A DNA stretch of 64,000 bases from Verrucomicrobiota bacterium. GTDB lineage: Bacteria; Pseudomonadota; Gammaproteobacteria; Nevskiales; Nevskiaceae. The stretch lies in contig CAJCJI010000178.1 in assembly GCA_903970595.1 (NCBI GenBank), positions 1 through 64,000 of the forward strand, in the 5' to 3' direction. The notes beneath the pieces were generated by a model. It saw only the letters and a program-made list of their open reading frames with translations, had not been told where the DNA came from and searched no databases. The position numbers and the translations under genes were made by a program. This document shows positions 5,922-25,171 of the stretch, piece by piece; positions within the stretch are counted from its first letter, which is position 1, and each line of letters starts with the position of its first letter.

Positions 5922-5922
5922 A

Positions 5923-7110: not shown

Positions 7111-7126
7111 TCTGCTCGAGGCAGTC

Positions 7127-7396
7127 ATGACCACGGATGTTGCCCTGCAGCTGATGCGCGAAATGCTCTGGACGGCTCTTTGGGTGGGCGCGCCGATCAT
7201 CGCAGTGAGCATGCTTGTCGGCTTGCTGGTCAGTGTGTTCCAGGTGGTGACACAGCTGCAGGAGATGACGCTCACCTTTGTGCCCAAGCTGGTGGCGATT
7301 TTCTTCACTTTGCTGCTAGGTGGTGGCTGGATGCTGTCCAAGCTGGTGGTCTACAGCTCGAAACTGATCGCGAGCATCCCGCAGCTGGTTCATTGA
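7127..7396 (+). CDS. fliQ: Flagellar export gate protein FliQ
   Basis: The 89-aa protein has two transmembrane helices (AMLWTALWVGAPIIAVSMLVGLLVSVFQ and FVPKLVAIFFTLLLGGGWMLSKLVV) joined by the family loop VVTQLQEMTLTFVPK. Length and sequence are normal for FliQ. With FliP and FliR it forms the helical export gate in the MS-ring pore. The ATG at 7127 is chosen because translation from farther upstream adds a non-family leader that overlaps the TPR gene. It opens the fliQ-fliR-flhB-flhA run. Confidence 0.95.
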   Translation: MTTDVALQLMREMLWTALWVGAPIIAVSMLVGLLVSVFQVVTQLQEMTLTFVPKLVAIFFTLLLGGGWMLSKLVVYSSKLIASIPQLVH

Positions 7397-9264: not shown

Positions 9265-11318
9265 ATATCCTGAAGATGGCGTTCGGCTCCCGCAGTGATC
9301 TGGCAATCATCCTGGCGGTGCTTGGCATCCTGTTCGTGCTGTTCTTTCCGATTCCGTCGCCGCTGCTGGATTTCCTGCTGATCCTGAACCTCAGCTTTGC
9401 CATGCTGATCCTGCTCCTGACCTTTTATACGGACAAACCGCTGGGGTTTTCCACCTTTCCCTCACTGCTACTGATCGCCACGCTGTTCCGGTTGTCCCTC
9501 AACGTCGCCGCGACCCGGCTGATCCTGTCGAAAGGGGACGCCGGGCATGTCATCGCCACTGTCGGTACCCATGTAGTAGCCGGTAACTATGTGATCGGCC
9601 TGGTAGTTTTCCTGATTCTCATCGTGGTGCAGTACGTGGTTGTGACGAGCGGCGCGCAGCGTGTCGCCGAAGTGGCTGCGCGATTCACCCTGGACGCCAT
9701 GCCGGGCAAGCAAATGAGCGTCGACGCCGAAATGAACATGGGCCTGATCGATGAGAAGGAGGCCAGGCGCCGCCGCTCGGAGATCGAAAAGGAGGCCAAT
9801 TTCTACGGCGCGATGGATGGGGCCAGCAAGTTCGTCAAGGGCGATGCGGTCGCCGGCATCATCATCATCCTGATCAACATCATTGGCGGCCTGTCGGTCG
9901 GTTTGGTGCAGCGGGGGCTTTCGTGGGCGCAGGCGCTAAATTTGTACACGCTGCTGACCGTAGGCGATGGCATTGTGACGCAGATCCCGGCATTGGTGAT
10001 CGCCACCGCCACCGGCATCATCGTCACGCGCGCGGCCACCGACGCGCATCTGAGCGAGGAAATCGCCAAACAGGTCACGCGCTATCCTAAATCGCTGGTG
10101 ACGGTTGGGGTGGCCCTGATGCTGTCCCTGTTCATGCCCGGAATTCCAGTATTTCCCGTGCTCATCCTGCTTGCTGTGGATGCGGGCCTGCTGGCTATTG
10201 CCGTCCGAACGAAGGGTAGGGAAGCAACCGACGCCGCCGCGGCACTAGTGGGTCCCAGCGACGGCTTGCCCGCGCAGGAGGACCTCACAGCGTTGCTTCC
10301 GGTAGATCCTATCGAGGTCCAGATTGGACCCGCGCTGGTGCCGGTACTGGGTCAGACGGAGGGGCCTTTCATGCGTCGCGTTCAGGCATTCCGTCGCCAG
10401 TATGCAATCGATTACGGCTTCGTCTTTCCGCCGGTCCGCGTGCGCGAGATTGCCAAGAAAAGCGGCGACGAATACGAAGTTCGGATTCAGGGCGCGAAGA
10501 TCGCCTCTGGGCAACTGCTACCCGAGCAGGTGTTGGCGATCAACCCTGGCGGCGAGCGGGCCCGCCTGGCCGGAACCGCAACCCGCGACCCGACATTCGG
10601 CCTGGCGGCGGTGTGGGTTCCGGAGCGCGAACGCGAGCGTGCGCAGCGGGCGGGCTATACGGTGGTTGATCCGGTGACCGTCATCAGCACCCATTTCAAT
10701 GAACTGATCAAGACCCATGCGGCCGACCTGCTGTCCCGGCCGGAAACCGAGGCCCTGCTGGGGCGTGTACGCCAGAAATATCCGACACTGGTCGAGGAAC
10801 TGCTACCTGGAATCCTGTCCTTTGGTGAGGTACAGCGCGTTTTGCAGAATCTGTTGCGCGAGAAGGTCTCGATCCGAAATCTGGAGTACATCGTCGAGCT
10901 GCTGCTGGAGCAAGGGCGCCTGACGCGGGACACCGATGTGTTGACTGAATCGGTGCGGGAACGCCTGGGCAACATCATTTGCGACCGTCTGGGCGCCAGC
11001 GACGGTTCAATGCACGTGCTGACGTTCGACCCCAAGATCGAGGAGCGACTGCGTGCAGGTCTGCGCCAGACCGACAAGCACACCGCCCTGATCATTGATC
11101 CGCCGATGGCGGAAACCCTGCTGCGACGCCTGGCACAGCGTTGCGAGGAAATGATGCTGCAGAATTTGATGCCAATTCTGTTGTGCACGCCATCGCTGCG
11201 GCGGCATGTGCGCCGGCTGACCGAGCGGGCGCTTCCGCATCTGACGGTTCTATCGGTCAACGAGGTGCCGCAAACCAGGACCATTCGGGCCTTCGCGATG
11301 GTTGAAAAAATAGCCTGA
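9261..11318 (+). CDS. flhA: Flagellar export protein FlhA
   Basis: The 685-aa product has the full FHIPEP family layout. About eight N-terminal membrane helices contain the conserved FSTFPSLLLIATLFRLSLNVAATRLIL and the cytosolic FHIPEP loop (SVDAEMNMGLIDEKEARRRR). A large soluble domain follows from about residue 320 (VQIGPALVPVLGQTEGPFMRRVQAFRRQ) to the C-terminus. FlhA forms the nonameric ring that docks chaperone-substrate complexes and uses the proton gradient. Length is normal. It ends the first gene run and is followed by the only long gap inside the block. Confidence 0.95.
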   Translation: MNILKMAFGSRSDLAIILAVLGILFVLFFPIPSPLLDFLLILNLSFAMLILLLTFYTDKPLGFSTFPSLLLIATLFRLSLNVAATRLILSKGDAGHVIATVGTHVVAGNYVIGLVVFLILIVVQYVVVTSGAQRVAEVAARFTLDAMPGKQMSVDAEMNMGLIDEKEARRRRSEIEKEANFYGAMDGASKFVKGDAVAGIIIILINIIGGLSVGLVQRGLSWAQALNLYTLLTVGDGIVTQIPALVIATATGIIVTRAATDAHLSEEIAKQVTRYPKSLVTVGVALMLSLFMPGIPVFPVLILLAVDAGLLAIAVRTKGREATDAAAALVGPSDGLPAQEDLTALLPVDPIEVQIGPALVPVLGQTEGPFMRRVQAFRRQYAIDYGFVFPPVRVREIAKKSGDEYEVRIQGAKIASGQLLPEQVLAINPGGERARLAGTATRDPTFGLAAVWVPERERERAQRAGYTVVDPVTVISTHFNELIKTHAADLLSRPETEALLGRVRQKYPTLVEELLPGILSFGEVQRVLQNLLREKVSIRNLEYIVELLLEQGRLTRDTDVLTESVRERLGNIICDRLGASDGSMHVLTFDPKIEERLRAGLRQTDKHTALIIDPPMAETLLRRLAQRCEEMMLQNLMPILLCTPSLRRHVRRLTERALPHLTVLSVNEVPQTRTIRAFAMVEKIA

Positions 11319-11580: not shown

Positions 11581-11701
11581 GAATGCGATTTCGCAGGGAA
11601 TCGGCGGAAGTAACGAGGGAGCAGGTGCAAAGCCTAGCTCAGGGATCAGGGAGTGCAATTTACGACTTAGCGCGGCTTAAACTGTGCGCCTTGGGGGAAA
11701 T

Positions 11702-12421
11702 TTGGACAGCGTATTTGCGGTAGCCCGCATTGGCATGCTTGCCGATTTTGCGCGCTTATCCGTTCAGTCGCAGAATCTTGCCAATGTCGATACCGTCGGT
11801 TACAAGCGACAGGTATCAGTGACCACGGGTTTTGACGCTCGCCTTGACAGTGTGCAGCAGATCGACGACGTCAGCCTGGCGAGCACTTCGCTTACGGACG
11901 TACAGGCCGGTGTTCTCAAGGGGACCACCCGCCCGCTGGACCTTGCCTTAGACGGGGACGGCTTTTTTTCAGTTCGCACGTCCTCCGGAGTGCGGTACAC
12001 CCGGCGCGGGGATTTCTCCCTTGACGCGACTGGACGATTGGTCAATTCCGCCGGCGATCCGGTTCTGGGAGGTGGCGGCGAACTCGTATTGCCGAATATG
12101 GCTGTCACCATCGACAGTACCGGCAAGATCTTCGATTCCAATCAGCAACCGCTCGGGCAACTCGATATTGCACAGTTTTCCGATCCCAAGCGGCTTCGTT
12201 ATCTCGGCGCAGGGCAGTTCGACGCCGCGGGCCAGGCACCAACGGGAGAGGTGACCGCGACCAGGGTGCGTTCCGGATACCTTGAAGCGTCCAATGTGCA
12301 GCCGGCACACGAGATGATCGGCTTGATGGATGTATCGCGGCAGTTTCAGCTGACCAAAAGCGTACTCACGGCCCGCGACGAGATGCTGGACAGTGCGGCA
12401 AACACCCTGGCCCAGTTCTGA
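11702..12421 (+). CDS. flgF: Flagellar proximal rod protein FlgF
   Basis: The 239-aa protein belongs to the FlgF/FlgG rod-hook family. Features include the N-terminal SQNLANVDTVGYKRQ motif, LDLALDGDGFFSVRTSSGVRYTRRGDFSLDATGRLV in the middle, and SGYLEASNVQPAHEMIGLMDVSRQFQLTKSVL at the C-terminus. TTG 11702 is preferred because a GGGGGAA stretch lies just upstream and the protein then begins MDSVFAVA, parallel to FlgG. GTG 11684 is possible but has no ribosome-binding site. FlgF sits before flgG in the usual order and should form the proximal rod. Confidence 0.88.
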   Translation: MDSVFAVARIGMLADFARLSVQSQNLANVDTVGYKRQVSVTTGFDARLDSVQQIDDVSLASTSLTDVQAGVLKGTTRPLDLALDGDGFFSVRTSSGVRYTRRGDFSLDATGRLVNSAGDPVLGGGGELVLPNMAVTIDSTGKIFDSNQQPLGQLDIAQFSDPKRLRYLGAGQFDAAGQAPTGEVTATRVRSGYLEASNVQPAHEMIGLMDVSRQFQLTKSVLTARDEMLDSAANTLAQF

Positions 12422-12454: not shown

Positions 12455-13237
12455 TTGCTTGACTCGATCTACATCGCGGCAACCGGTATCGGCGCTCAAC
12501 AGACCCGCATTGATGCGATTTCCAATGACGTCGCCAACGTGAATACCACCGCCTACAAGATGCAGCGGGCCAATTTCGAGGACGTATTCTATCGTCGGGC
12601 CGCGCAGAGATCGGGCGACTCAGCGCCACTGGCGCTACCCGCGCCGGTCGGTCTGGGCGTGGCTGTGTCTGGAACCCAGACGATCTTCACCCCGGGCAGT
12701 CTGACGCAAACGAACAATCCACTGGATCTTGCGATCAGCGGCAATGGATTCTTCGAGGTGCAGATGTCGGACGGCGCCACGGCCTATACCCGTCTGGGGT
12801 CCCTTGGCCTGGATGAGAAGGGCGAATTGGTCACCCAGGGTGGTGACCCGCTCAAAGTGCGCTTCGTGGTGCCATCGACTGCGACGGCGGTACAGGTGGC
12901 GGCCAATGGCCAGGTCACCGCCAACGTGGCAGGGCAGGCAAACCCGGTGGTTCTCGGCACGCTGGAGCTGGCGAATTTTGTCAACCCCGAAGGCCTGACG
13001 CCCCTGGGTTCGGGCCTCTACGCAGCAACCAACGATTCGGGGCCCGCATTCCAGGCGGTGCCGGGCCAGGAGGGCATGGGGACCTTAAGTCAGGGCTACC
13101 TTGAGTCCTCGAATGTGGACCTGACCTCGGAACTGGTGTCGTTGACCCTCGCCCAGCAGGCCTACCAGCTGAGTTCGAGAGTGCTGCAGGTGTCCGACGA
13201 CATCCTGTCCACCATCACCAACTTCCGTCGCAGTTGA
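12455..13237 (+). CDS. flgG: Flagellar distal rod protein FlgG
   Basis: The 260-aa product starts at TTG with GGAG just upstream. It shows the FlgG hallmarks: MLDSIYIAATGIGAQQTRIDAISNDVANVNTTAYK, NPLDLAISGNGFFEVQMSDG, and the C-terminal YLESSNVDLTSELVSLTLAQQAYQLSSRVLQ. FlgG forms the distal rod, which crosses the peptidoglycan and reaches the L ring. Length is normal. Confidence 0.93.
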   Translation: MLDSIYIAATGIGAQQTRIDAISNDVANVNTTAYKMQRANFEDVFYRRAAQRSGDSAPLALPAPVGLGVAVSGTQTIFTPGSLTQTNNPLDLAISGNGFFEVQMSDGATAYTRLGSLGLDEKGELVTQGGDPLKVRFVVPSTATAVQVAANGQVTANVAGQANPVVLGTLELANFVNPEGLTPLGSGLYAATNDSGPAFQAVPGQEGMGTLSQGYLESSNVDLTSELVSLTLAQQAYQLSSRVLQVSDDILSTITNFRRS

Positions 13238-13241: not shown

Positions 13242-14225
13242 GTGTCCCCAGCGCGCCGCTACTTGGGCTTGTTGTTGGCCTCAGCATGCTGCTGCGCAGC
13301 CACGGCAGCTGCACTCGAGCCGCTCACGCTGGAGCTCCAGCCGGCTTTGACAAGTGGTTCGGCCGTGGTGCGTCTGGATCAGTTCGTCTCGATCAGCGGC
13401 GGCGATGAGGCGCTTCGGTCGCGGCTGGGTTCTGTAGAGTTGCGGCTGGTCAGCCCGCCTGGCGCCGAAGAGCGTGTCACTCGCGATGACGTATCGGCCC
13501 TGGTGGCGCTGCGCATGCCGGATCTGGCCAGCCCCCTGCTGTGGAAAGGCTCCTCGACGATTTCGCGGATTCGGGTTCAGGGCCGGCCGTTGGACTTGCA
13601 GCAACTAACGCAGGAAGGGCAGGCCTTGCTGGAAGATTGGCTGCGCGCCCGCGTCGAGCGATTCAAGGTCGTGCCGCTTTCCGACAGGCAGATCGCCGAG
13701 GCCGAGTCGGCGGCAGACGAAACCGCGACGCTGCGCCCGTTCGCCGGACCGGTGTCGGCCAGGACGGCACTCTGGGTAGATCTGGCGCGACCCGGCCGGC
13801 CTGCTCGCGGCGGCTTTCCCATCTGGTTCGCGGTGGAAGCCTGGGCCGACGCGCCGGTGGCCGCCACCGATATCATCGCCGGTACGCGGCTCAGTGCCGA
13901 GCAGGTGAGCCGATCGCTCCAGGACATCGCCGCGCTGGGTCCGAGGCCCCTGCTGACCGATGCCGACATCCCGGAGAGTGTCGCGGTAGCTCCGATACGG
14001 CAGGGAGAGGCGCTGACCAGAGACCGATTTCGCCAAGCGACGCCGGTGGTGGCCGGTGACGAGGTCCGTCTTCGCGTACAGGATGGGCCGATGCGGGTGG
14101 AAGCTCACGGCATTGCATTGGAGTCAGGAGGCAACGGCCAGCGCATCCGCGTGCGCAATTCCGGCAGTGGCGAGGTGCTGGTCGCCAGCGTGGCCGGCAA
14201 GGGGCTGGTCGAGGTGGCCCCATGA
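13242..14225 (+). CDS. flgA: P-ring assembly chaperone FlgA
   Basis: The 327-aa protein has a signal peptide (MSPARRYLGLLLASACCCAATAAA) and a C-terminal SAF/FlgA domain with DIIAGTRLSAEQVSRSLQDIA, IRQGEALTRDRFRQ and GDEVRLRVQDGPMRVEAHGIALESGGNGQRIRVRN. FlgA is the periplasmic chaperone that helps FlgI assemble the P ring. It is somewhat longer than the E. coli protein because of the N-terminal half, as in many other Pseudomonadota. It overlaps flgH by four bases. Confidence 0.88.
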   Translation: MSPARRYLGLLLASACCCAATAAALEPLTLELQPALTSGSAVVRLDQFVSISGGDEALRSRLGSVELRLVSPPGAEERVTRDDVSALVALRMPDLASPLLWKGSSTISRIRVQGRPLDLQQLTQEGQALLEDWLRARVERFKVVPLSDRQIAEAESAADETATLRPFAGPVSARTALWVDLARPGRPARGGFPIWFAVEAWADAPVAATDIIAGTRLSAEQVSRSLQDIAALGPRPLLTDADIPESVAVAPIRQGEALTRDRFRQATPVVAGDEVRLRVQDGPMRVEAHGIALESGGNGQRIRVRNSGSGEVLVASVAGKGLVEVAP

Positions 14226-14806
14226 GAAGAGATTTGTCGCAGGTCCTTATCGGCCTGTGCTGCTTGGCGGCAGGGATTTCCCAATGCACGCACGCCGGGG
14301 GTCTGTACCACCCGGATGCTTATGCACCACTGACGTCGGACTACCGCGCCTTCAAGGTTGGTGATGCCATTACCGTGATGATCGTGGAATCGGCTAGCGC
14401 CGAGAGCGACGCCGAATCCGACACCAACCGCAATCTGCAGATCACCGCCGGGCTGCAGGGTAGTTCCACGCAGCACACCGCCGGCGCCTCGCTGAGCCGT
14501 CAAAACACCAACAATGGGACCACCACCCGCAATGGCTCGCTCCAGGCGGAGATCACCGCCCGCGTGCAGTCGATCGCCGCAAACGGCGACCTGGCAATCC
14601 ACGGGACGCAATCCATCACGGTGAACGGCGAAACGCAGCGTATCGAACTGTCCGGCGTGGTGCGCTCGATCGACGTATCCGCGGGTAACGTGGTGCAATC
14701 GACGCGACTGTCGAATGCCAGTATCGAATATTCGGGGAAGGGCTTCGTCGATCGCAGCCAGAGCGAAGGCATCATTTCCCGCGTGCTCGATTTCTTCGGG
14801 CTCTGA
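14222..14806 (+). CDS. flgH: Flagellar L-ring protein FlgH (short, no clear lipobox)
   Basis: The 194-aa protein carries FlgH features: GGLYHPDAYAPLTSDYRAFKVGDAITVMIVESASA, the long Ser/Thr/Asn-rich middle, and ITVNGETQRIELSGVVRSIDVSAGNVVQSTRLSNASIEYSGKGFV. FlgH normally is an outer-membrane lipoprotein. Here the signal sequence reads LIGLCCLAAGISQCTHAGGLY and the residue before Cys is Gln, so the usual lipobox is missing. It may be cut by signal peptidase I after THA. The protein is also shorter than the usual 220 to 230 aa. Confidence 0.88.
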   Translation: MRRDLSQVLIGLCCLAAGISQCTHAGGLYHPDAYAPLTSDYRAFKVGDAITVMIVESASAESDAESDTNRNLQITAGLQGSSTQHTAGASLSRQNTNNGTTTRNGSLQAEITARVQSIAANGDLAIHGTQSITVNGETQRIELSGVVRSIDVSAGNVVQSTRLSNASIEYSGKGFVDRSQSEGIISRVLDFFGL

Positions 14807-14808: not shown

Positions 14809-15954
14809 GTGCGCCCGCACTTGGCCATGTTCCTACTTTGCGCCTGCGCTGCTGCTGCGGGGGTCCAGGCGAGCGCCGGGGTGCCGGTACTGGCGAAGGT
14901 GCGCGATATCGCCCGCGTCCAGGGTGTGCGTGACAATCCGCTGGTGGGCTATGGCATCGTCGCTGGCCTTGCCGGCACCGGCGATTCGGCCCGCAGCATC
15001 GCAACGCTGCAGTCCATCTCCAACGCGTTGGCACGATTCGGGGTGCGTGTGACCCCCGACCAGATCAACTCGCGCAACGTCGCCGCGGTAATCCTCAGCG
15101 CAACGTTGCCGCCGTTCGCAACGAGCGGCGACAAGCTGGACGTCAACGTGGCATCGCTTGGCGATGCGCGCAGCCTGACCGGCGGCACGCTGATGCTGGC
15201 CGCCCTGAAGGGGCCCGACGATGTCGTATACGCGCTGGCGCAGGGTCCGCTCTCGGTCGGCGGGTTCCGCTATGACGCTTACGGCAACCTGCTGGAAAAG
15301 AACCATCCGACGGTCGGCCAGATTCCCGGAGGCGCCATCATCGAGGCCGATGTGCCGACCAGCATCGTCAGCAAGGCCGGGAGTATTTATGTCGTCCTGG
15401 ACAGTCCCAACTACGTCACCGCACAGCGCATCACCGAGGCGCTCGAGGCCAAGCTTCCGCCGATGCCAGACGCCAGGATCGAACGGGTGCAGGCAGTGGA
15501 TGCCGGGCGGGTCGCCGTGCGTCTTACGCCGGAAGACCAGGCGCAGCTGGTCAGCTTCATGGCGCGGATCGAGGATGCCCAGGTAGTGCCTGATGAAGAG
15601 GCACGCATCGTGGTGAACGAGCGTACCGGCACCGTGGTGAGCGGCGGCGACGTCCGGCTGGGTCAGGTCAGCATCGCGCAAGGCGACCTGAAGGTCGACA
15701 TCTCCACGGATTATGCGCTGGCACAACCGCTGGGCATCGGCAGGGCTGGCAACCGGCCTTCCGGCCTGTTTCCCACTACCCAGATCAGTGCCGATGAAAC
15801 CACGAACGCGGCCGTCAGCCTGCCGTCGGGTACCAGCGTCGCCGACCTGGTTGCAGCCCTCAACCGGCTGAAGGTCGCGCCGCGCGACACTATTTCGATT
15901 TTGCAGGCGATCAAACGGGCGGGGGCGCTGAACGCCCAGCTCATCATTCAGTAA
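14809..15954 (+). CDS. flgI: Flagellar P-ring protein FlgI
   Basis: The 381-aa precursor has a signal peptide and the full FlgI sequence: VRDIARVQGVRDNPLVGYGIVAGLAGTGDS, NVAAVILSATLPPFATSGDKLDVNVASLGDARSLTGGTLMLAALKG, and the C-terminal LPSGTSVADLVAALNRLKVAPRDTISILQAIKRAGALNAQLIIQ. FlgI forms the periplasmic P ring. The GTG start follows the flgH stop by two bases. Presence of FlgA, FlgH and FlgI means the structure is built to cross a Gram-negative envelope. Confidence 0.95.
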   Translation: MRPHLAMFLLCACAAAAGVQASAGVPVLAKVRDIARVQGVRDNPLVGYGIVAGLAGTGDSARSIATLQSISNALARFGVRVTPDQINSRNVAAVILSATLPPFATSGDKLDVNVASLGDARSLTGGTLMLAALKGPDDVVYALAQGPLSVGGFRYDAYGNLLEKNHPTVGQIPGGAIIEADVPTSIVSKAGSIYVVLDSPNYVTAQRITEALEAKLPPMPDARIERVQAVDAGRVAVRLTPEDQAQLVSFMARIEDAQVVPDEEARIVVNERTGTVVSGGDVRLGQVSIAQGDLKVDISTDYALAQPLGIGRAGNRPSGLFPTTQISADETTNAAVSLPSGTSVADLVAALNRLKVAPRDTISILQAIKRAGALNAQLIIQ

Positions 15955-15965: not shown

Positions 15966-16367
15966 ATGGCAGAGGGCGCACTCATTCAGATTTCCGGCGT
16001 TACGCAACAGCTGGAGCACATGGCCTTGCGCGCCTTCGAGCTGCGGCAACGGGTCATTGCCCACAATATCGCGAACGTCGATTCCGTCGGCTTCCGTCCC
16101 TTGCGCGTCAATTTCGAAGAACAGCTGGGACCGCTGCGCGCGGCGATCGAGGCCCAGGATTCGCCCGACAGGATTGCTGCCCTAGCGGCGCAGGTCCGGC
16201 CCGAGGTGGAGACCGAGGACGCGACGGCGACTCCCTTCGCCACGCCGGGCGAGAACCTTGATGAGCAGCTCGTGGCGCTGACCAAGAACACCCTGGACTA
16301 CGAAGCCATGCTGACGGTTGTGTCGCGCCTCGGCGGACTGCGCCGTCTGGCCATCTCGGGGAGCTGA
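15966..16367 (+). CDS. flgB: Flagellar proximal rod protein FlgB
   Basis: The 133-aa product has the rod-family start LEHMALRAFELRQRVIAHNIANVDSVGFRPLRVNFEEQL and the C-terminal pattern LVALTKNTLDYEAMLTVVSRLGGLRRLAI. A GGGGGGAC ribosome-binding site precedes the ATG. It is the first gene of the flgB-flgC-fliE trio, which is usually kept together because these proteins join the MS ring to the rod. Confidence 0.9.
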   Translation: MAEGALIQISGVTQQLEHMALRAFELRQRVIAHNIANVDSVGFRPLRVNFEEQLGPLRAAIEAQDSPDRIAALAAQVRPEVETEDATATPFATPGENLDEQLVALTKNTLDYEAMLTVVSRLGGLRRLAISGS

Positions 16368-16370
16368 GTG

Positions 16371-16823
16371 ATGCAAGACTATGGTGGCTTGCTGGCAATC
16401 AGCGCGACCGGTATGCAGGCCGAGCGCCTGCGCCTGGAGGTGGCAGCCCAGAACCTGGCCAATGCGCATTCGGTGATCAGCGGTCAAGGCGAGCCCTATC
16501 GCGCGCTGCGCGTAGTGCCATATGCGGCCGGTAGCGAACTGTTCGACAACAAGTTGAAGATTTCAGCCGCTTCCGCAACAGCAGAGCTGCACGGCGTCGG
16601 TCATGTGGAGGTGGTCCCGACCGGCGCGGAGCCGAGGCTCGACCATGATCCGGGAAATCCGTTCGCCGATGCCCAGGGCATGGTGCGCGTGCCGCAAATT
16701 GATGTGGCCGATGAAATGCTCACGGTGCTGACCTCGGTCCGGGCCTACGAGGCAAACGTGCGGGCCATGGCGGCCGCGAAATCGATATTCATGAAAGCGC
16801 TCGACATCGGGAGCAACCACTGA
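16371..16823 (+). CDS. flgC: Flagellar proximal rod protein FlgC
   Basis: The 150-aa protein starts at ATG 16371 (GTG 16368 just before it is also open). It has GGLLAISATGMQAERLRLEVAAQNLANAHSVIS at the N-terminus and VPQIDVADEMLTVLTSVRAYEANVRAMAAAKSIFMKALDIG at the C-terminus, both diagnostic of FlgC. The stop overlaps the fliE start (TGATG). Confidence 0.92.
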   Translation: MQDYGGLLAISATGMQAERLRLEVAAQNLANAHSVISGQGEPYRALRVVPYAAGSELFDNKLKISAASATAELHGVGHVEVVPTGAEPRLDHDPGNPFADAQGMVRVPQIDVADEMLTVLTSVRAYEANVRAMAAAKSIFMKALDIGSNH

Positions 16824-17122
16824 TGAATCTTGCCGTGGAAGCTATTGCCGCAGCCGCACTGCCAGGGGCCGCTGGTGCCACCGCGAATGCGGGCGCTGCG
16901 ATGCCGGATTTCAGCCAGTGGCTTGAGCAGAACGTGAGCGGTGTCAATCAGGACGTGACCCGCGCCGAGCATGCAGCCCAGCTCCTTGCGGCGGGGCAGG
17001 CCGATAGCCTGCCTGACGTGATGATCGCCATCGAGCAGGCACGAGGATCGCTTTCGCTGATGCTGCAGGTGCGCGACCGCCTCGTCAGTGCCTATCAGGA
17101 CATTTTGCGGATGCAAATTTGA
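16823..17122 (+). CDS. fliE: MS ring-rod junction protein FliE
   Basis: The 99-aa product ends with PDVMIAIEQARGSLSLMLQVRDRLVSAYQDILRMQI, the conserved FliE C-terminus. FliE links FliF to the rod and is the first exported substrate. Translation is coupled to flgC through a TGATG overlap. Length is normal. Confidence 0.93.
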   Translation: MNLAVEAIAAAALPGAAGATANAGAAMPDFSQWLEQNVSGVNQDVTRAEHAAQLLAAGQADSLPDVMIAIEQARGSLSLMLQVRDRLVSAYQDILRMQI

Positions 17123-17171: not shown

Positions 17172-18590
17172 ATGAACGCCGCGGCTCGTTTTTCGGCTGC
17201 CACGTGGTGTGGCGACCTGGATAGAAACCGCCGCTTCGGCTTGGTTGGTGGCGTGGTAGCCATCTTGGCCGCTGCTACGGCTTTTGCCTGGTTTTCCCTG
17301 CATTCGGATTTTTTGCCCCTGACCGGCGGACTTTCGAAGGAGGATACGGCAGCGACGGTCGCGCAACTCGAGGACATCCGGGCACGTTACCGTGTCGACC
17401 CATCTACTGGTGCCGTGCTGGTTCCGGCGGCGGAAATCGACACGGTCCGGGCCCAGCTTGCACAGAAGGGATGGCCGCTCAAGCCAGCGGCGGGGTTTGA
17501 ACTATTCGACAGTGGCGATTTCGGCATGACCGAGTTCACCGAGCGGATCAACTACCAGCGAGCCCTGGAAGGCGAGCTCGCTCGCACCATTATGGAGCTC
17601 GACGAAGTGCGTTACGCACGCGTGCATCTGGTGCTGCCGCAGTCCAGTTTGTTCAAGAAGTCCGGTGAGCCGCCGAAAGCCTCGGTGTTGCTGGTGGGCC
17701 GTCACGGCGACGTGATGTCGGCGCCCCAAATCGCCGGCATTCAGCGCATGGTGGCCTCGGCAGTGCCCGAGTTGAAGGCAGAAAACGTCTCGGTGCACGA
17801 TCACAAGGGCGTTGAACTGACCAGCGGCGCCGCCGGCGCGCTTTCGCCGGAAGCGGTGGATACCGCAATTCGCGCACAGTCGGATGTCGAAGACTTTCTC
17901 TCCGCGAAAGCGGAAGAGATTCTTTTGCGGGTGTTTCCTGATGGAACGGCGACGGTCAGCGTCAATGCCACGTTGACGCGCAGTCAAGTGTCTAGTGTTC
18001 GTGACGAGGTCCTGCCGAGCGGGCAGGGCTCCGGAACGGTATCGCACATCCGGTCGGACACGCTGCCTGATGTCGTTTCCGCGGCATTGCCACATCTCGC
18101 ACGAGATCCCGCGGCCGCCCCGCACTCTGATGCTGCCGCGCCGGAATTTGATGTGGAATATCGGATTGGGCACCTTACCGAGCAATCCGAGTCGGCGCCG
18201 GGCGGTATTGAGCGTTTGTCCGTAGGGGTTGTCATTCCGGATCCGTCGGCTCAAGGCCTGACGGTGGACAACGTGCGGGAGTTGGTGGCTGCGGGCATTG
18301 GCATCGATGCTCAACGCGGTGATCGCATCGCCGTTTATCCCGTGGCGTCGCTGACGAAGAGCGTTGCCGCGGGCGGCGCGCATGGCAGCCCGAGTGTTAC
18401 TGGCCCGGACCGGGCCGCGCCCGGTCCGGGCCCGGCGGAGCCCAAACCTTATTGGGCATTGCTACTGGGTATTGCCGCCTTGCTCGGTGCGGTGTTGGTG
18501 TGGCTTGGCCGTCCCCGGCGCCACCAGACATTGACCGCGGCCGAGCGAGAGGAGCATCTCAACAAGGTGCGGCAATGGCTCCAGCAGTGA
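17172..18590 (+). CDS. fliF: MS-ring protein FliF (compact)
   Basis: The 472-aa protein has two membrane helices, VGGVVAILAAATAFAWFSL near residue 30 and YWALLLGIAALLGAVLVWLG near 440. Between them are the ring-building motifs, with FTERINYQRALEGELARTIMELDEVRYARVHLVLPQSSLF and VPELKAENVSVHDHKGVEL. It ends EREEHLNKVRQWLQQ, the short acidic/aromatic tail that binds FliG in other systems. It is shorter than the usual 530 to 570 aa, mainly in the periplasmic insertion before the second helix. FliF forms the inner-membrane ring that houses the export gate. Confidence 0.92.
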   Translation: MNAAARFSAATWCGDLDRNRRFGLVGGVVAILAAATAFAWFSLHSDFLPLTGGLSKEDTAATVAQLEDIRARYRVDPSTGAVLVPAAEIDTVRAQLAQKGWPLKPAAGFELFDSGDFGMTEFTERINYQRALEGELARTIMELDEVRYARVHLVLPQSSLFKKSGEPPKASVLLVGRHGDVMSAPQIAGIQRMVASAVPELKAENVSVHDHKGVELTSGAAGALSPEAVDTAIRAQSDVEDFLSAKAEEILLRVFPDGTATVSVNATLTRSQVSSVRDEVLPSGQGSGTVSHIRSDTLPDVVSAALPHLARDPAAAPHSDAAAPEFDVEYRIGHLTEQSESAPGGIERLSVGVVIPDPSAQGLTVDNVRELVAAGIGIDAQRGDRIAVYPVASLTKSVAAGGAHGSPSVTGPDRAAPGPGPAEPKPYWALLLGIAALLGAVLVWLGRPRRHQTLTAAEREEHLNKVRQWLQQ

Positions 18591-19147
18591 AAGCCGCGGC
18601 GGAATCCCCGGTTGTGGCTGGACGCAAGCGCGCTGCGGTGCATCTGGCGATGCTTGCGCCTTCTGATCGCAACTGGATATTGAGCCATTTACCGCCTGAG
18701 CTGCAGGATGAGATACGCACTCTGTTGAAATCGCTGCGGTCGCTGGGTTTGGCGAATTTGGCAGCCTTGCGTGCCGAGATTGAAGCACTGCTCGCAGCAC
18801 CGGGTGCCCCCAGGGAGGTGTCCGTCGTCCAGAGACAGCCGCCGGAGCAGGTCGCGACTACAGGGCCTCTGGAACGTGCCTCGGCGGACGAGCTCGGGGG
18901 CATCTTGCGCGAGCTTCCATTCGGATGTCTGGACTTACTCCGTGCACGCATGCCAGCCAGTCGAAGGCACATTGTCTCAGCGGTACAGTTGCGTCACGCA
19001 GGTGCCGATGACAGCCTCAGGTCCAGTCCCGACGTGAAACGGGTCACCGAGGCATTCATCGACGCGCTCGCAGTGATCGTGGAACAGCGCTTGGCGCAGA
19101 GCGAAACGAAGCCCTCAGGCATCGACCTTGCAACGAGTCCAGCATGA
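18575..19147 (+). CDS. Minimal FliG-like protein without a recognisable torque domain
   Basis: The gene sits in the fliG slot between fliF and fliH and overlaps fliF by 16 nt. The 190-aa product is only a little over half the length of FliG (about 330 aa). Its N-terminal part, GRKRAAVHLAMLAPSDRNWILSHLPPELQDEI, has the look of FliG's armadillo-like ring-forming helices, and a second similar piece is LERASADELGGILRELPFGCLDLLRARMP. The middle-domain EHPQ motif and the C-terminal charged helix that meets MotA in rotary motors are not found. I infer an adaptor that couples FliF to the FliM/FliN ring without torque. Homology to FliG is supported by position and weak pattern only. Confidence 0.55.
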   Translation: MAPAVKAAAESPVVAGRKRAAVHLAMLAPSDRNWILSHLPPELQDEIRTLLKSLRSLGLANLAALRAEIEALLAAPGAPREVSVVQRQPPEQVATTGPLERASADELGGILRELPFGCLDLLRARMPASRRHIVSAVQLRHAGADDSLRSSPDVKRVTEAFIDALAVIVEQRLAQSETKPSGIDLATSPA

Positions 19148-19908
19148 CGCCTGCCGAGCCAGATCGGTCAATTCTTCACTCTCCGCGAGTCGAGGCGGTA
19201 CCGCGTCGGCTCGGCAGCAGCGCCATTGCTAAAACCCTGCCATCGCCGAATCAGCGGTCCTCTTTGCCCGGATTCGCCGAGATCGCGTCGGAGTCAAACT
19301 CCGGCGTGAGTCCCGAGGCTATCCGGCAGCCTCTGCCGGCACAGATTCCGCCTGAGTTGATACGCGCTGCCGAACATCGCGGTTACGAGGCGGGATTTGC
19401 CAAGGGGAATCAAGCAGTTCGAGGCGAATTCAGGGCCGTTCTGGAACGGCTGGACATTTTGCTGGAGTCCATTGCACAGAAGCGGGATGACCTGCTTGAA
19501 GTCCTTGAAGACGATCTGGTGGAGCTTGCCTTCGAAGCCGCGGCTTTGGTCATAGGTGATGCCGGCGTGCAGCGCGACCTCGTGGTCGAAACGGTCCGGC
19601 GAGTTCTCGCCCAACGATCTGACGCGCATATTGTTGTGGTACGGATTGCTCCCGCGGATTTAAAGCTCGTGGCGGAGTCGGAATCCGGCGCCACCTTGGG
19701 ACTGGGATCGAGAATCAGGCTGCTGGGCGACCCGGAGATTGCCCTTGGCGGCTGCGTAATCGACACCGGGCAAGGTACTTTGGACGCGAGGCTGGAACTG
19801 CTGCTCGCCAAGCTGCGCAGCGCGCTGCTCGAGGCCCGCAGCAAGAGCGCGGACGCGGTGCGGACGCGTGTCCCGCCCTTGTTGGACGGCGCGAGCGGAT
19901 CCCCTTGA
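19144..19908 (+). CDS. fliH: Export ATPase regulator FliH
   Basis: The 254-aa protein has a variable N-terminus, the Gly-containing helix AAEHRGYEAGFAKGNQAVRGEF, a long coiled-coil stretch (LERLDILLESIAQKRDDLLEVLEDDLVELAFEAAALVIGD) and a C-terminal domain with VRIAPADLKLV and LGGCVIDTGQGTLDARLELLLAKLRSAL. This is the FliH/SctL layout. FliH tethers the FliI ATPase to the C-ring. It overlaps its neighbours on both sides by four bases. Confidence 0.88.
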   Translation: MTPAEPDRSILHSPRVEAVPRRLGSSAIAKTLPSPNQRSSLPGFAEIASESNSGVSPEAIRQPLPAQIPPELIRAAEHRGYEAGFAKGNQAVRGEFRAVLERLDILLESIAQKRDDLLEVLEDDLVELAFEAAALVIGDAGVQRDLVVETVRRVLAQRSDAHIVVVRIAPADLKLVAESESGATLGLGSRIRLLGDPEIALGGCVIDTGQGTLDARLELLLAKLRSALLEARSKSADAVRTRVPPLLDGASGSP

Positions 19909-21230
19909 TTCCGATGCTTGCCAAGTACGCCGACTCTCTGCGCCGCCAGGAATGGGTCCAGCGCACCGGCACCGTGCGTGAATGCGTGGGCTCGATCATC
20001 GTTGCCAATGGACCGGACGCTGCGCTGGGAGAACGCTGCCAGATCGTGATCGGTGGCGGCCGACAGTCCGTCGATGCCGAAGTTGTGGGCTTTCGCAGCG
20101 ACAGCGTGTTGCTGATGCCTTATGCGGAGCTGGCGGGGGTGCGCCCGGGCAGCAGCGTGATCGCTACCGGGCGATTTCCCGAGGTCGCGGTCGGGCAGGG
20201 GTTGCTCGGGCGGGTCGTCGACGCCTATGGCCAGCCGATCGACGGCAGGCCTCTGACTGGAATCGCGGGCCGCCGCCCGATCCACGGCCAGCCAATTAAC
20301 CCGCTCAATCGCCGGCGCATCCGGGAGATTTTCACAACCGGCGTCAAAGCGATAGACCTGTTTTTGACCCTGGGGGTCGGACAGCGCATTGGCTTGTTCG
20401 CCGGCAGTGGCATCGGCAAGAGCGCGTTACTGGGGATGATTGCCAAGAACAGCGCCGCCGACGTCAACGTCATCGCCTTGGTCGGCGAGCGCGGCCGTGA
20501 GGTGCGGGACTTCGTGGAAGATCACTTGGCCGACGGATTGAGCCGGTCGGTGGTGGTGGTGGCATCGGCGGAGCAGAGCCCTTTGGTCCGATCGCAGGCG
20601 GCATTCGCCGCCACCAGCATCGCGGAATATTTCCGTGATCAGGGGCTTTCCGTTTCACTGTTGCTGGATTCGATTACGCGTTTCGCCATGGCGCGACGCG
20701 AAATTGGCCTGGCTGTCGGGGAGCCGCCGACTGCTCGCGGCTACACGCCCACGGTGTTTTCCCTGCTGCCGCAGCTGCTGGAGCGCGCGGGGAGTTATTC
20801 GAAACAGGGTAAGGGCGCCATCACGGGGCTGTACACGGTTCTTGTCGAAGGCGACGACCTCAACGAGCCTGTCTCCGACAGCGTGCGCGCCATACTCGAT
20901 GGTCACATCGTGCTGTCCCGCGACATCGCCAATCATGGGCGCTATCCGGCGATTGACCTGATGGCCAGCGTCAGCCGGCTGTTTTCGGTTCTAGCCGACG
21001 AAGGGCAGAAGCGAGCGGTCTCGAAAGTGATCAGGCTGCTGGCGACCTACGCCGATTCGCGCGATGCGATCGATCTGGGCGCGTACAAAGCTGGAAGCAA
21101 CGCGGAGCTCGATGAAGCCATTAAACTGCTGCCCGGCATCGAGCAGTTGCTGCGACAGCCGGTCGAGCAAAGCGTGCCGCTGGATTTGGCGCGCAAGCAA
21201 TTGATCGCGCTCACCGGAGGCGCCACTTGA
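19905..21230 (+). CDS. fliI: Flagellar export ATPase FliI
   Basis: The 441-aa protein is a standard F1-like export ATPase. The Walker A motif is GLFAGSGIGKSALLGMIAK, Walker B lies in LSVSLLLDSITRFAMARREIGLAVGEPPTARGYTP, and the QPVEQ/AxK-type tail is present. TTG 19905 overlaps the fliH stop, and ATG 19914 is an alternative. It unfolds and delivers substrates to FlhA with FliH and FliJ. Confidence 0.96.
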   Translation: MIPMLAKYADSLRRQEWVQRTGTVRECVGSIIVANGPDAALGERCQIVIGGGRQSVDAEVVGFRSDSVLLMPYAELAGVRPGSSVIATGRFPEVAVGQGLLGRVVDAYGQPIDGRPLTGIAGRRPIHGQPINPLNRRRIREIFTTGVKAIDLFLTLGVGQRIGLFAGSGIGKSALLGMIAKNSAADVNVIALVGERGREVRDFVEDHLADGLSRSVVVVASAEQSPLVRSQAAFAATSIAEYFRDQGLSVSLLLDSITRFAMARREIGLAVGEPPTARGYTPTVFSLLPQLLERAGSYSKQGKGAITGLYTVLVEGDDLNEPVSDSVRAILDGHIVLSRDIANHGRYPAIDLMASVSRLFSVLADEGQKRAVSKVIRLLATYADSRDAIDLGAYKAGSNAELDEAIKLLPGIEQLLRQPVEQSVPLDLARKQLIALTGGAT

Positions 21231-21691
21231 GCCGGAATACAAACGGGCACTCGCGCGCGCTTCAGTTGGTGGAAGCCAATCTGCGGCAGGAACTGCGTGA
21301 GCGTGCAAGTGCGCACGCGCTGGATCTGGGGACCTTCCATTTCGCCGAAGCCGCGATGCGATCATTGGAATTGACGGTAACCGACCGGGAAGCCGCACTA
21401 CGTACCCGGCTCTCCGACGTCCGGGAAACATTGGATCCTGCCATGTTGCTTCTGTTCCATGCGGCGCTTGCCGACGGGCGGCAGGAGCATCATTTCGCAG
21501 CCCAGGTGGCGGATAAGGCCGAAGCGGACCTAGACGCCAGCCGCGACGCCTTGTATCAAACGCTCAAGCGGCGCAGCGTGCTGAAGGATGTCCGAAGGCA
21601 GCGAACTCGAGAGGATTCCCTCGAAGAATCGAAGCGGCAGGCATTCGAACTCGACGCCTTGTGGTTGCAGAGCCGGTACGGCCGGCCATGA
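21227..21691 (+). CDS. fliJ: Export ATPase stalk protein FliJ
   Basis: The 154-aa product is almost entirely helical and predicted to form an antiparallel coiled coil (LVEANLRQELRERASAHALDLG, ALYQTLKRRSVLKDVRRQRTREDSLEESKRQAFELDALWLQ). The end of the protein follows the FliJ/SctO pattern, and the gene follows fliI with a four-base overlap. FliJ is poorly conserved, so the call relies on size, coiled coil and position. Confidence 0.75.
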   Translation: MSRNTNGHSRALQLVEANLRQELRERASAHALDLGTFHFAEAAMRSLELTVTDREAALRTRLSDVRETLDPAMLLLFHAALADGRQEHHFAAQVADKAEADLDASRDALYQTLKRRSVLKDVRRQRTREDSLEESKRQAFELDALWLQSRYGRP

Positions 21692-22362
21692 TCTCCGTCC
21701 TGCAGGAGTCGTATCCAAGCGCGCTCCCTGCGAGGCTGGGTGAGCGCTTCGCTGAAAGCACCCGCCTGGGCTGGGAATTGTCAGACTTCACGAATCTCTT
21801 CGAGAATCAGCTGGTGCAGTTTGCGCGGGGTTCGGCGTCCGGCCTTCAACACGGCGGAGACGGGTTCCCGGATTTCGTCGCAGCGGCGGTTGCAGGTGCC
21901 GGCAACATCGCTACCCCCTTCACTGGAATCGCCCGGATTCCCCCTGAGGATTCGACGACCGGCCCGAGTCCGACGCAGGTAGATGCACTCAATGTGGCGG
22001 CACCCGTGGAGCAGCATGATGGAATCGCGTTGATCCAGGTGCAGAAGTCCCCTGCCGAGCCTACTACTGGAAGTACCGGCGAAGAATCAGTCGACACCTT
22101 GCCCGCATCGGGCCGTGCGATCGCGGTTGATGGCGATGCGGCGCAGCATCAGCAAAATCAAAGCGTAGTGTTGGCGTTGGGCCCCGGTGGCGCCGAGGTC
22201 TACATCCGTGATGCGGTTCTGGATGCGGATGCGGGCCTTGCCTTTGCGCGGACCGCCGCCGAGCTACTGCAGCACCATCGGCTGGTGCTGGGCCGGGTAC
22301 TAATCAACGGACAAAGGGTGCATTCGGAGCCGGGCTGGCCGGATGCAACGGATTCAGGCTGA
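21688..22362 (+). CDS. Unrecognised protein in the fliK position
   Basis: The 224-aa product starts MISVLQESYPSALPARLGERF at an ATGA overlap with fliJ. It has a low-complexity middle (IPPEDSTTGPSPTQVDALNV, VQKSPAEPTTGSTGEESVDTL) and a C-terminal part VVLALGPGGAEVYIRDAVLDADAGLAFARTAAELLQHHRLVLGRVLINGQRVH. FliK, the hook-length ruler, is normally found between fliJ and flgD, is Pro/Ser/Gln-rich in its first half and has a C-terminal switch domain. The general layout fits, but I cannot see the conserved FliK C-terminal motif. It could be a diverged ruler or a substrate peculiar to this system. Confidence 0.5.
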   Translation: MISVLQESYPSALPARLGERFAESTRLGWELSDFTNLFENQLVQFARGSASGLQHGGDGFPDFVAAAVAGAGNIATPFTGIARIPPEDSTTGPSPTQVDALNVAAPVEQHDGIALIQVQKSPAEPTTGSTGEESVDTLPASGRAIAVDGDAAQHQQNQSVVLALGPGGAEVYIRDAVLDADAGLAFARTAAELLQHHRLVLGRVLINGQRVHSEPGWPDATDSG

Positions 22363-22392: not shown

Positions 22393-22815
22393 ATGGCGGT
22401 CAGCGCAATCGGCGGGTCCGTAGGCAGCGGAGCCGGACTGAGTACGGTCCAGCAAAGCGGGCTGAGCGAACAGGATTTCATCAATCTGTTTCTCACGCAG
22501 CTGACGTTCCAGGACCCGCTCAACCCGGTCGACAATCGCGAGTTCCTGGCTCAGTTGGCGGAATTCACCACCATCGAGCAGGATCAGATGATCAATGACA
22601 ATCTGACCGGCTTGTTGGAAATACAAGCATCCACGCAAGCTATCGGTCTGATCGGCAAATCGGTGCAGATTACGCAAAACGGCCAGAACATCATCGGATC
22701 CGTCACCGCCGTGAGCTTCCAGAACAATCAGGCGGCTCTGACGGTGACGGAGACCGGCGGGACCGTTCTTACCGATGTCAGTCCGTCTGAAGTTACCCTG
22801 ATCAACGGGACCTGA
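22393..22815 (+). CDS. flgD: Hook-capping scaffold FlgD (short form)
   Basis: The 140-aa protein contains the FlgD core, SEQDFINLFLTQLTFQDPLNPVDNREFLAQLAEFTTIEQDQMINDNL, followed by IGLIGKSVQITQNGQNIIGSVTAVSF. It ends after a short beta domain, so it lacks the Ig-like C-terminal domain of the longer E. coli protein. Short FlgD proteins are known in other phyla. A GAGGAG ribosome-binding site precedes the ATG. FlgD caps the growing hook. Confidence 0.9.
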   Translation: MAVSAIGGSVGSGAGLSTVQQSGLSEQDFINLFLTQLTFQDPLNPVDNREFLAQLAEFTTIEQDQMINDNLTGLLEIQASTQAIGLIGKSVQITQNGQNIIGSVTAVSFQNNQAALTVTETGGTVLTDVSPSEVTLINGT

Positions 22816-22819: not shown

Positions 22820-24028
22820 ATGACCGCATTTTCCGCCATCTACAGCAGCCTGACTGGCCTGCTCAGCTACACGACCGCGCTGGACGTGGTTAGCCAGAAC
22901 ATCTCCAACCTCAATACGCCTGGGTTCAAGAGCAACGAGTCGCTGTTTGAAGACCTGGGGCCTCTGCAAGTTGGCAACGAAGCGGTCGGCGGGTCGTTCG
23001 AGGACGCGATTGGCCAAGGCGTCACCGTGGACGGGCAGGTGACGAATTTCTCCGAAGGCCAGATCCAGTCCACCGGAAACCCGACTGACCTGGCGATCAA
23101 CGGCAACGGATTTTTTGTGGTGCAGGTTGGTAGCCAGCTGGTTTATACGCGCAACGGCCAGTTCACCTTCAATGGCGGTGGTCAGCTGGTCAACGCGACG
23201 GGCGACCCGGTGATGGCGATTGGTGCAAACGGCAATCTTTCGGACCTGATCGTGAACCAGACACAACAGTATCCGGCCACACCGTCGACGACGGTGAAAT
23301 TCGACAGCACGCTGTCCACTGGGCAGTCCGGCCCCTATACGGTGAGCAGCATCGATGTGGTTGACGCGAGCGGCACCAGTCAGACGCTGTCGGCAGCCTT
23401 TACCTTGGGAACCAATTCGAGCACCGGCTCGATCGAATGGACGGTGAACGTCACCAACAGCAGCGGCGTTACAGTTGGAACCGGCACCATTCAATTCAGC
23501 GGGGCAGGCACGCCGCAGGCCGGATCCGACACCATCACGGTGACGCTGCCTACCGCCAACAATACAAGCAGCCAGATCACCTTTGATTTCAGCGATGCCA
23601 CCTCCAATTCCAGTGGCGCGACCTCGTCACTGGCTGTGGAAAGTGTGGACGGCACGCCTTCTGGTTCGCTGACGGGAGTTACTTTCGACCAGAACGGCGT
23701 GGCGCAATTGGCATTTTCGAACGGCCAGACCCTTACCGGGTCGCAGCTTGCATTGGCCAGCTTTCCCAATCCGGGCTTGCTGGTCGAAGACGGCACCTCC
23801 GGGTACATCGTTCCGCCCGGCTCAACTCTCACACCGACGCTGGGTCACGCTGGCGAGGGGGGGTACGGCACCATAGAGGCGGGAAACCTGGAACTTGCGA
23901 ATGTGGATCTGGGCAATGAGTTTGCGGAGATTATCGTTCTGCAGCAAGGCTATGATGGTAGTTCGCAGGTTTTGAACGTGTCCAGCCAGCTCCTCGACAC
24001 CTTGTACAAAGCGCTCGGGCAGTCCTAG
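22820..24028 (+). CDS. flgE: Flagellar hook protein FlgE
   Basis: The 402-aa protein has the FlgE N-terminus (FSAIYSSLTGLLSYTTALDVVSQNISNLNTPGFKSNESLFEDL), a Gly/Ser/Thr-rich variable middle, and the C-terminus GNLELANVDLGNEFAEIIVLQQGYDGSSQVLNVSSQLLDTLYKAL. Size is typical. Presence of a full hook protein argues against this being an injectisome, which would have a needle and secretin. The stop overlaps the GTG of the fliM-like gene. Confidence 0.93.
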   Translation: MTAFSAIYSSLTGLLSYTTALDVVSQNISNLNTPGFKSNESLFEDLGPLQVGNEAVGGSFEDAIGQGVTVDGQVTNFSEGQIQSTGNPTDLAINGNGFFVVQVGSQLVYTRNGQFTFNGGGQLVNATGDPVMAIGANGNLSDLIVNQTQQYPATPSTTVKFDSTLSTGQSGPYTVSSIDVVDASGTSQTLSAAFTLGTNSSTGSIEWTVNVTNSSGVTVGTGTIQFSGAGTPQAGSDTITVTLPTANNTSSQITFDFSDATSNSSGATSSLAVESVDGTPSGSLTGVTFDQNGVAQLAFSNGQTLTGSQLALASFPNPGLLVEDGTSGYIVPPGSTLTPTLGHAGEGGYGTIEAGNLELANVDLGNEFAEIIVLQQGYDGSSQVLNVSSQLLDTLYKALGQS

Positions 24029-24846
24029 TGCAAGCGCTACATCGACCGTTCCGCCCGCTTGGCCCACTGCAACTGCAGCACCTGGGCACATGGCTCGAGA
24101 ACGCACATCAAGTTTGGCATCGTCGCTGGTTCAAGGATGGACTCGATCACGAGCTTAAGGTCCAATGTGAGGTCGCGACCGTTCCAGGTGGAATTTCCGC
24201 GGGCGATTGGTTGAAATGTCAAACCAGGTGCGGCGCAGTATTCCTCGCGCTTCCGGATTCACTGTGCGGAGAATTCGTCGAATCCTGGATCGGCACCAAG
24301 CCTGAACCAGAATGGCGCGATGGAGACGCAGCCAGCAGGCTGCTCGCGCAGCGCATTCTGGGAGACTGGTTCGGCAGGGTTGTCGGGGCCGAGTTGAAAG
24401 TGGAGGTTTCTCCGGCCGCGGTTGTCTGGAACCGTGCTGCACCTGACGAAGGAAGCTACGCGCCGGCCAGTGGGGCCGTTTGCGCAAGCTTTGAGACTTG
24501 GTTCGGAAACTTCCAAGCGATCTTCGACGGCGACTATGTGCAGGCAGTTCAGCCAACAGTCTTGCCGATGCCGCGCAACATTCCGCATCGGGTCCCCCTG
24601 CTTCAGGCGATCCGGTCGGCGCAGGTCAAACTCCAGGCGAGTGCCAATGCGAGCGCGCAGCTTTCGATCGGCTCTTTGCGCAACTTGTCCGTCGGCGACG
24701 TACTGTTGCTCGAACCGACAGTCACCGAAACATGGAACCTGGCGACGACAGCAGGACAACACGTCGCAGACTGCCACATCGGACGTAAGGCGACGAATCG
24801 CGCGGTCCTCATCTCTTCGAGCAAGGAATTCAAAGATGGTCGCTAA
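24028..24846 (+). CDS. fliM: FliM/SctQ-like C-ring protein without a CheY-binding peptide
   Basis: The 272-aa product sits directly before fliN and ends with a SpoA-type domain (LQASANASAQLSIGSLRNLSVGDVLLLEPTVTETWNLATTAGQHVADCHIGRKATNRAVLI). The first 190 residues are poorly conserved. Motile FliM proteins begin with a short acidic peptide of the L-S-Q-x-E-I-D-x-L-L type that binds phospho-CheY and have GGxxG in the middle domain. Neither is visible here. It looks more like the SctQ proteins of injectisomes, which serve as a sorting platform. Assembly with FliN is expected. I assign the name fliM by position. Confidence 0.7.
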   Translation: MQALHRPFRPLGPLQLQHLGTWLENAHQVWHRRWFKDGLDHELKVQCEVATVPGGISAGDWLKCQTRCGAVFLALPDSLCGEFVESWIGTKPEPEWRDGDAASRLLAQRILGDWFGRVVGAELKVEVSPAAVVWNRAAPDEGSYAPASGAVCASFETWFGNFQAIFDGDYVQAVQPTVLPMPRNIPHRVPLLQAIRSAQVKLQASANASAQLSIGSLRNLSVGDVLLLEPTVTETWNLATTAGQHVADCHIGRKATNRAVLISSSKEFKDGR

Positions 24847-25171
24847 GGAAACGGGTGGCACTGGCGCGCCCCCGCCGGTTCAGCCGGTTGAATTGCCGGA
24901 ACTGGGTACCTCGGATCGAGGTAAGCCTTTGGTCTTGCGTACGTTGGACGTGATTCGGGACGTACAGGTCCGAGCTTCTGCTGTGCTCGGTTCGACTTCG
25001 GTCTCCGTCGAGCACTTGTTTGGATTGAAGGAGGGCGACGTGCTGGAGTTGGACCAGGCAGTCAATGCCCCGGTAGAGGTGCTGGTCGAAGGGAATCTGG
25101 TAGCACACGGGCAGATCGTTGTAGTGGGTGAACGGTTTGGCATCCTCATCACGGGTATTTCGGAGCGATGA
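24836..25171 (+). CDS. fliN: C-ring protein FliN
   Basis: The 111-aa protein has a short variable N-terminus then the whole FliN SpoA domain: VLRTLDVIRDVQVRASAVLGSTSVSVEHLFGLKEGDVLELDQAVNAPVEVLVEGNLVAHGQIVVVGERFGILITGI. FliN forms the lower C-ring and binds FliH, bringing the ATPase complex to the gate. It overlaps the fliM-like gene by 11 nt. Confidence 0.93.
   Translation: MVAKETGGTGAPPPVQPVELPELGTSDRGKPLVLRTLDVIRDVQVRASAVLGSTSVSVEHLFGLKEGDVLELDQAVNAPVEVLVEGNLVAHGQIVVVGERFGILITGISER

Follow-up and report, generated by a model that had tools for sequence, protein, structure and literature searches.

The window analysed here, the whole 64,000-nucleotide (nt) stretch from contig CAJCJI010000178.1 (GenBank assembly GCA_903970595.1), carries a nearly complete flagellar-type gene cluster in which the place of fliG, between fliF and fliH, is taken by a short open reading frame (ORF). 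This ORF, named fliG* below, encodes 190 amino acids (aa) and contains no internal stop. Its first 16 nt still belong to the end of fliF, and its 3′ end overlaps the start of fliH. The flagellar-type set extends over 7064–27213 and two TPR genes lie just upstream (5376–7110), every gene being intact and overlapping; the order of genes from 5376 to 27213 is that of Table 1. Genes for flagellin, hook-filament junction, filament cap and stators were not recognised in the cluster, and its contig gave no match to flagellin, FliG_C or MotB_plug, in agreement with the lack of stator genes noted in a preliminary description of the locus. Since relatives flanked by fliF and fliH are found in 19 other genomes and a related pair shows a ratio of non-synonymous to synonymous substitution rates (dN/dS) of about 0.18, fliG* goes beyond chance and is a real, intact gene.

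Searched alone, the window protein passed the threshold of no FliG profile model or Pfam cut-off, its sole match being MgtE_N (E 0.097), and FliG_C gave no match in the Pfam search. More was obtained from the family. Across 18 FliG* members, Pfam detected MgtE_N in 6 (best 1.7e-5), FliG_M in 5 (best E 0.0012) and FliG_N in 2 (best E 0.056), while FliG_C exceeded its cut-off in 0/18. The torque domain, said to be missing in the preliminary description, is thus absent from the protein and from its relatives at that cut-off. When the FliG* profile was compared to 177,635 PDB sequences, the best match, and the only one below 0.1, was full-length Aquifex FliG (3hjl; residues 12–162, E 0.0041). On whole genomes, the same profile also retrieved two canonical FliG genes adjoining canonical fliF in two genomes, together with one unrelated helicase. 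The canonical FliG of the window's own genome aligned to it in the same register across the N–M region, and three true FliGs scored 12.0–13.6 bits, whereas none of 900 shuffles exceeded 8.8.

The AlphaFold model of FliG* (mean predicted local distance difference test score, pLDDT, 75; predicted template modelling score, pTM, 0.41) comprises helical units at residues 12–74 and 98–141 separated by a disordered linker (78–95), followed by a helix and a tail, with most of the N-terminal unit above 90. This agrees with the two armadillo-like pieces and tail previously proposed from the sequence. The fold check, run on the protein alone, also favoured the proposed similarity to the FliG N and M domains: the top three Foldseek matches were FliG, and in a second look with VIA the first 14 matches were all FliG chains. 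FliGn from the T. maritima FliFc:FliGn complex ranked first among these (Z 6.7, 2.6 Å, 46 residues), and FliG of the Salmonella C-ring was aligned over model residues 16–177.

Several observations weigh against this assignment. Each FliG match is weak when taken singly, the pTM of the model is low, no Foldseek match has an E below 0.05, and Z values of 5–7 in a helical protein can come from common arrangements. An hhalign comparison with three canonical FliGs gave an E of 0.0068 but a low probability. FliG_M binds FliM through an EHPQR motif that FliG* has not conserved, the aligned place being occupied by 'EPxW' in the family consensus and 'ELPFGC' in the window protein. Homology to FliG N and M is nevertheless supported because these individually weak lines agree together; sequence profiles and the predicted fold thus support FliG* as a FliG-derived N–M protein, with a putative FliF-gripping N-terminal unit and a FliG_M-like unit. 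Because neither FliG_C nor the EHPQR motif was found, FliG* is not classed as a canonical FliG. It shares with canonical FliG the gene position, in the window and in the 19 other clusters, and probably the two units suggested by profile and fold, and differs in length (190 aa versus ~340 aa), in lacking FliG_C and EHPQR, and in passing no FliG cut-off alone.

The weak similarity and missing EHPQR motif leave some room for an unrelated helical adaptor occupying the same place, as SctK does between SctJ and SctL in injectisomes; the size and gene position of SctK resemble those of FliG*. We regard this as unlikely, though the best placed of the alternatives, as both the profile and the fold search of PDB put FliG first, true FliG is picked up by the profile in whole genomes, and the machine is otherwise flagellar, with rod, P and L rings and hook. 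None of the match lists from the Pfam, PDB profile and fold searches included SctK, an absence which by itself does not exclude it.

The expected partners of FliG* show a consistent pattern. The C-terminal sequence of fliF*, 'LTAAEREEHLNKVRQWLQQ', resembles the tail of canonical FliF, the helix that binds FliG. The pattern 'LT..ERE..L..VR.WL' is conserved, its L and W being invariant in the 9 sequences compared, and is similar to the end of the canonical FliF of the same genome, 'DPKRVAQVVKTWLGENG'. The FliM* model matches FliM_M/FliY (Z ~11.5, range 11–12, over 160–171 residues), and the SpoA domain (PF01052) was detected in 15/15 members. Residue ~10 of the model aligns with canonical residue ~45 and no extension lies upstream; since the alignment starts there, FliM* lacks the CheY-binding segment. 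As Pfam sees only SpoA, an SctQ-like identity was considered for FliM*, and was rejected by the fold search revealing the FliM middle fold. With FliG_C and the FliM N-segment gone, and FliG N/M and FliM middle/SpoA kept, the lost parts correspond to torque and switching and the kept parts to ring building.

The window protein used as query led to true relatives, checked for fliF before and fliH after, in genomes G279, G323 and G358; other matches of single-sequence searches (L004, L006, L008) had no nearby flagellar genes and were rejected as false. A search with a TPR2 alignment retrieved Lacisediminimonas profundi (G426) and Paucibacter sp. KBW04, a six-member FliG* profile identified 13 carriers, Paucibacter included, among 399 Burkholderiales genomes, and two further carriers, G604 and G682, were located through their RHS neighbours. 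In total, FliG* lies between fliF and fliH in 20 genomes, the window's own included. Its length is usually 160–206 aa; in G604 the slot (L117:14814–15098) encodes 94 aa, roughly the first unit, a further reduction. Many members (L033–L045) end in a basic-aromatic tail (WVRKWLP, WRR), possibly contacting the membrane or a partner, which the window copy lacks. We found no publication describing a short-FliG machine in the open-access literature.

Among 60 genomes of the same genus, family and order, none contained a match to the window protein, and the system is therefore patchy. This patchiness, the ordinary flagellum encoded elsewhere in the genome, the integrase gene adjoining the cluster and an assembly 87% complete could all be expected if a decaying second flagellum, on its way out of this one genome, had lost the 3′ end of its fliG. 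Such decay is very unlikely. Every gene is intact and overlapping, and the same short FliG recurs in the 19 other genomes. Gene content and order are nearly the same in 16 compared clusters, the exceptions being relocated TPR genes and, in a few clusters, a relocated export-gate block. In the FlhA tree, 18 short-FliG clusters form one clade with a long stem (support 100/100), set apart from the 25 further FlhA sequences, among them the one from the ordinary flagellum of the window's own genome. The dN/dS of two related FliG* genes (one pair, with synonymous sites near saturation) also indicates, at the sequence level, that FliG* is under purifying selection. The cluster thus represents a conserved machine type scattered among proteobacteria and not local decay. 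Two genomes that have the RHS N-terminus but in which no short-FliG cluster was found, G725 (L148, G725:C1:1408867; long branch) and G676 (G676:C1:252856), carry second FlhA genes, and these may belong to another divergent export system.

A full-length FliG used by the system from elsewhere in the genome had been named as what would refute a reduced adaptor. The window's own genome does encode an ordinary flagellar cluster on contig C355, including a 341-aa FliG (FliG_C E 4e-42, the single FliG_C match of the genome, on a contig other than that of the short-FliG cluster) and MotB, as well as flagellins on contig C526, and FliG_C and flagellin are also present in 17/20 carrier genomes. On the chromosome of G483, where FlhA is encoded three times and FliG_C twice, two ordinary flagella apparently coexist with the short-FliG machine. 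The cluster could be a rotary flagellum borrowing FliG, stators and flagellin from the ordinary set of the same cell. However, neither FliG_C nor flagellin was found anywhere in three carriers, G323 (97% complete), G426 and G816; MotB_plug is also absent genome-wide from G426 and G816, and the single FliF of G426 is that of the short-FliG cluster. One weak MotB_plug match in G323 (E 1e-4) weighs on the other side. Since the cluster persists in these three carriers without an ordinary flagellum, full-length FliG is not required, which speaks against the refuting case named above. Together with the separate deep FlhA clade and the missing CheY segment of FliM*, this makes borrowing very unlikely. 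Least credible of all is that the motor can still produce torque because the role of FliG_C has passed to some other protein: the cluster is accompanied by two conserved TPR proteins to which no role is assigned, but FliG_C matches in the 20 genomes occur only in frames of 330–362 aa, as in canonical FliG, and G426 and G816 have no MotB_plug.

We therefore consider it likely that FliG has here been shortened to its ring-building half and serves in a static C-ring platform of a filament-less hook/basal-body export apparatus. This proposal builds on what was computed here, namely the gene and its family, the FliG N/M homology, the missing FliG_C, the FlhA clade, the gene order and the co-occurrence with RHS genes described below. 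In the proposed arrangement, the first helical unit of FliG* would attach to the MS ring by gripping the C-terminal helix of FliF, and the second, FliG_M-like unit would hold FliM*/FliN. FliG_C, the domain pushed by MotA, is gone, and so is the N-terminal CheY-binding segment of FliM; from the missing FliG_C we infer that FliG* cannot transmit torque. The outcome would be a static C-ring, neither rotating nor switching, which could act as a docking and sorting platform (FliH-FliI-FliM-FliN) for the export gate. The hook/basal body without filament would then export a substrate other than flagellin, and the apparatus probably exports proteins rather than driving swimming.

A candidate for this substrate is found in related bacteria. 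A giant RHS-repeat ORF neighbours the short-FliG cluster in ten genomes (Table 1; cut by the contig end in G358), and in G483 two are in tandem. The giants measure 4,300–5,600 aa and share a conserved N-terminus (MVAIV.GN.LGL..SS) with no evident Sec signal; one from G483 (4,331 aa) carries DUF6531, 17 or more RHS repeats, DUF4214 and LysM. Among the 399 Burkholderiales genomes, the giant N-terminus occurs in 14, FliG* in 13 and both in 10 (Fisher p 1e-14, uncorrected for relatedness), and the association was maintained after dropping the five genomes contributing to the profile (p 9e-8, likewise uncorrected). Of 4 genomes having only the giant, 2 were later found to carry the cluster. At E 1e-5, a search for the giant N-terminus found nothing in the window's own draft genome. 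The signal-less giants are the best candidate cargo in related bacteria. Like RHS/YD-repeat polymorphic toxins, giants of these genomes have DUF6531, 17 or more RHS repeats and LysM; they differ in their size, their conserved N-terminus and the lack of PAAR among Pfam matches, and a link to a flagellar-type cluster was not seen in the parts consulted of a survey of such toxins (PMC3482391).

The remaining genes of the cluster and its surroundings are collected in Table 1. A phage-type integrase gene directly follows fliA at the cluster edge; no tRNA lies beside it or elsewhere in the window, and GC shows no sharp step. Just upstream of the cluster is a gene for a predicted lipoprotein with many Ig-like repeats. 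In 11 other clusters, a small conserved protein (~120–150 aa; L030:8147–8563, L064:11059–11442 and 9 others) is encoded near fliA or TPR1 and could be a chaperone or regulator; it had no Pfam match in two members and was not found in the window.

Table 1. Features of the short-FliG cluster and its surroundings in the window, and giant RHS ORFs at clusters of other genomes
Feature	Location	Strand	Length (aa)	Basis or remark
Lipoprotein, predicted	1065–4160	-	1031	many Ig-like repeats
TPR1	5376–5921	+	181	TPR protein typical of this system; compared across clusters
TPR2	5878–7110	+	410	TPR protein typical of this system; compared across clusters
fliQ	7064–7396	+		cluster comparison
fliR	7415–8170	+		cluster comparison
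flhB	8182–9264	+		cluster comparison
flhA (export gate)	9261–11318	+		member of short-FliG clade (tree)
flgF	11684–12421	+		profile match
flgG (distal rod)	12455–13237	+		TIGR02488 over cut-off
flgA	13242–14225	+		cluster comparison
flgH (L-ring)	14222–14806	+		cluster comparison
flgI (P-ring)	14809–15954	+		cluster comparison
flgB (rod)	15966–16367	+		cluster comparison
flgC (rod)	16368–16823	+		cluster comparison
fliE	16823–17122	+	99	profile match
fliF* (MS-ring)	17172–18590	+	472	TIGR00206 over cut-off
fliG*	18575–19147	+	190	FliG_N-like unit (residues ~9–58), linker, FliG_M-like unit (~96–145), tail; no FliG_C
fliH	19144–19908	+	254	PF02108
fliI (export ATPase)	19905–21230	+	441	homologues in all 16 compared clusters
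fliJ-like	21227–21691	+	154	assigned by position
fliK-like	21661–22362	+	233	assigned by position; no family match
flgD (hook cap)	22393–22815	+	140	cluster comparison
flgE (hook)	22820–24028	+	402	profile match
fliM*	24028–24846	+	272	FliM middle (CheC-like) fold and SpoA domain; no N-terminal CheY-binding segment
fliN	24833–25171	+	112	PF01052; exact start uncertain
fliO-like	25202–25630	+	142	FliO E 0.0065, below cut-off
fliP	25627–26388	+	253	cluster comparison
fliA-type sigma factor	26404–27213	+	269	profile match
Integrase, phage-type	27266–28570	-
Giant RHS ORF, G427	L030:10573 onward
Giant RHS ORFs, G483	L101:546–13541; L102:414–13835
Giant RHS ORF, G816	L061:10776 onward
Giant RHS ORF, G279	L011:7562 onward
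Giant RHS ORF, G323	L012:246–1145
Giant RHS ORF, G504	L054
Giant RHS ORF, G814	L066
Giant RHS ORF, G682	L106:1–11214
Giant RHS ORF, G604	L103:15323 onward

Conversion of flagellar systems to secretion is known or has been proposed (Buchnera, PMC8109811; exaptation, PMC3459982). In Buchnera, as in the short-FliG cluster, the genes for basal body and hook are retained while flagellin and motor proteins are missing, and protein secretion has been proposed for Buchnera (PMC8109811, PMC3459982). However, its basal bodies derive from an ordinary flagellum and retain FliG of ~38 kDa and FliM of ~37 kDa (PMC8109811), whereas the short-FliG machine has shortened FliG and FliM, its own deep FlhA clade and system-typical TPR proteins. 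With injectisomes (non-flagellar type III secretion systems; SctK/SctQ), the machine shares an adaptor gene between the ring gene and the FliH/SctL gene and, by analogy, would share a non-rotating cytoplasmic platform joining the inner ring to SpoA proteins and the ATPase. It differs from them by the rod, P/L-ring and hook genes (flgB, C, F, G, E, D, H, I) and by the FliM middle fold of FliM*, and the cluster has no recognised gene for a secretin or needle. A 'hat-like' structure related to the flagellar type III secretion system (PMC9380563) was also considered and rejected, as it is found in species that have ordinary flagella and remains when FliF is missing.

A bolder reading, given somewhat less than even chances, is that the clusters define a class of secretion machine of their own, derived from the flagellum but different from injectisomes, which has shed torque (FliG_C), switching (FliM N-segment) and the filament and exports giant (4,300–5,600 aa) RHS-repeat proteins via the hook conduit. 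In this system nature has dissected the flagellar switch complex, keeping what builds the ring and leaving out what serves torque and switching, so that the role of the C-ring in export alone can be tested. Lacisediminimonas profundi is well suited to such tests, being a named strain with only this system in its genome. Should the giant RHS proteins prove to be exported, the flagellum would have been converted to secretion one more time, independently of injectisomes.
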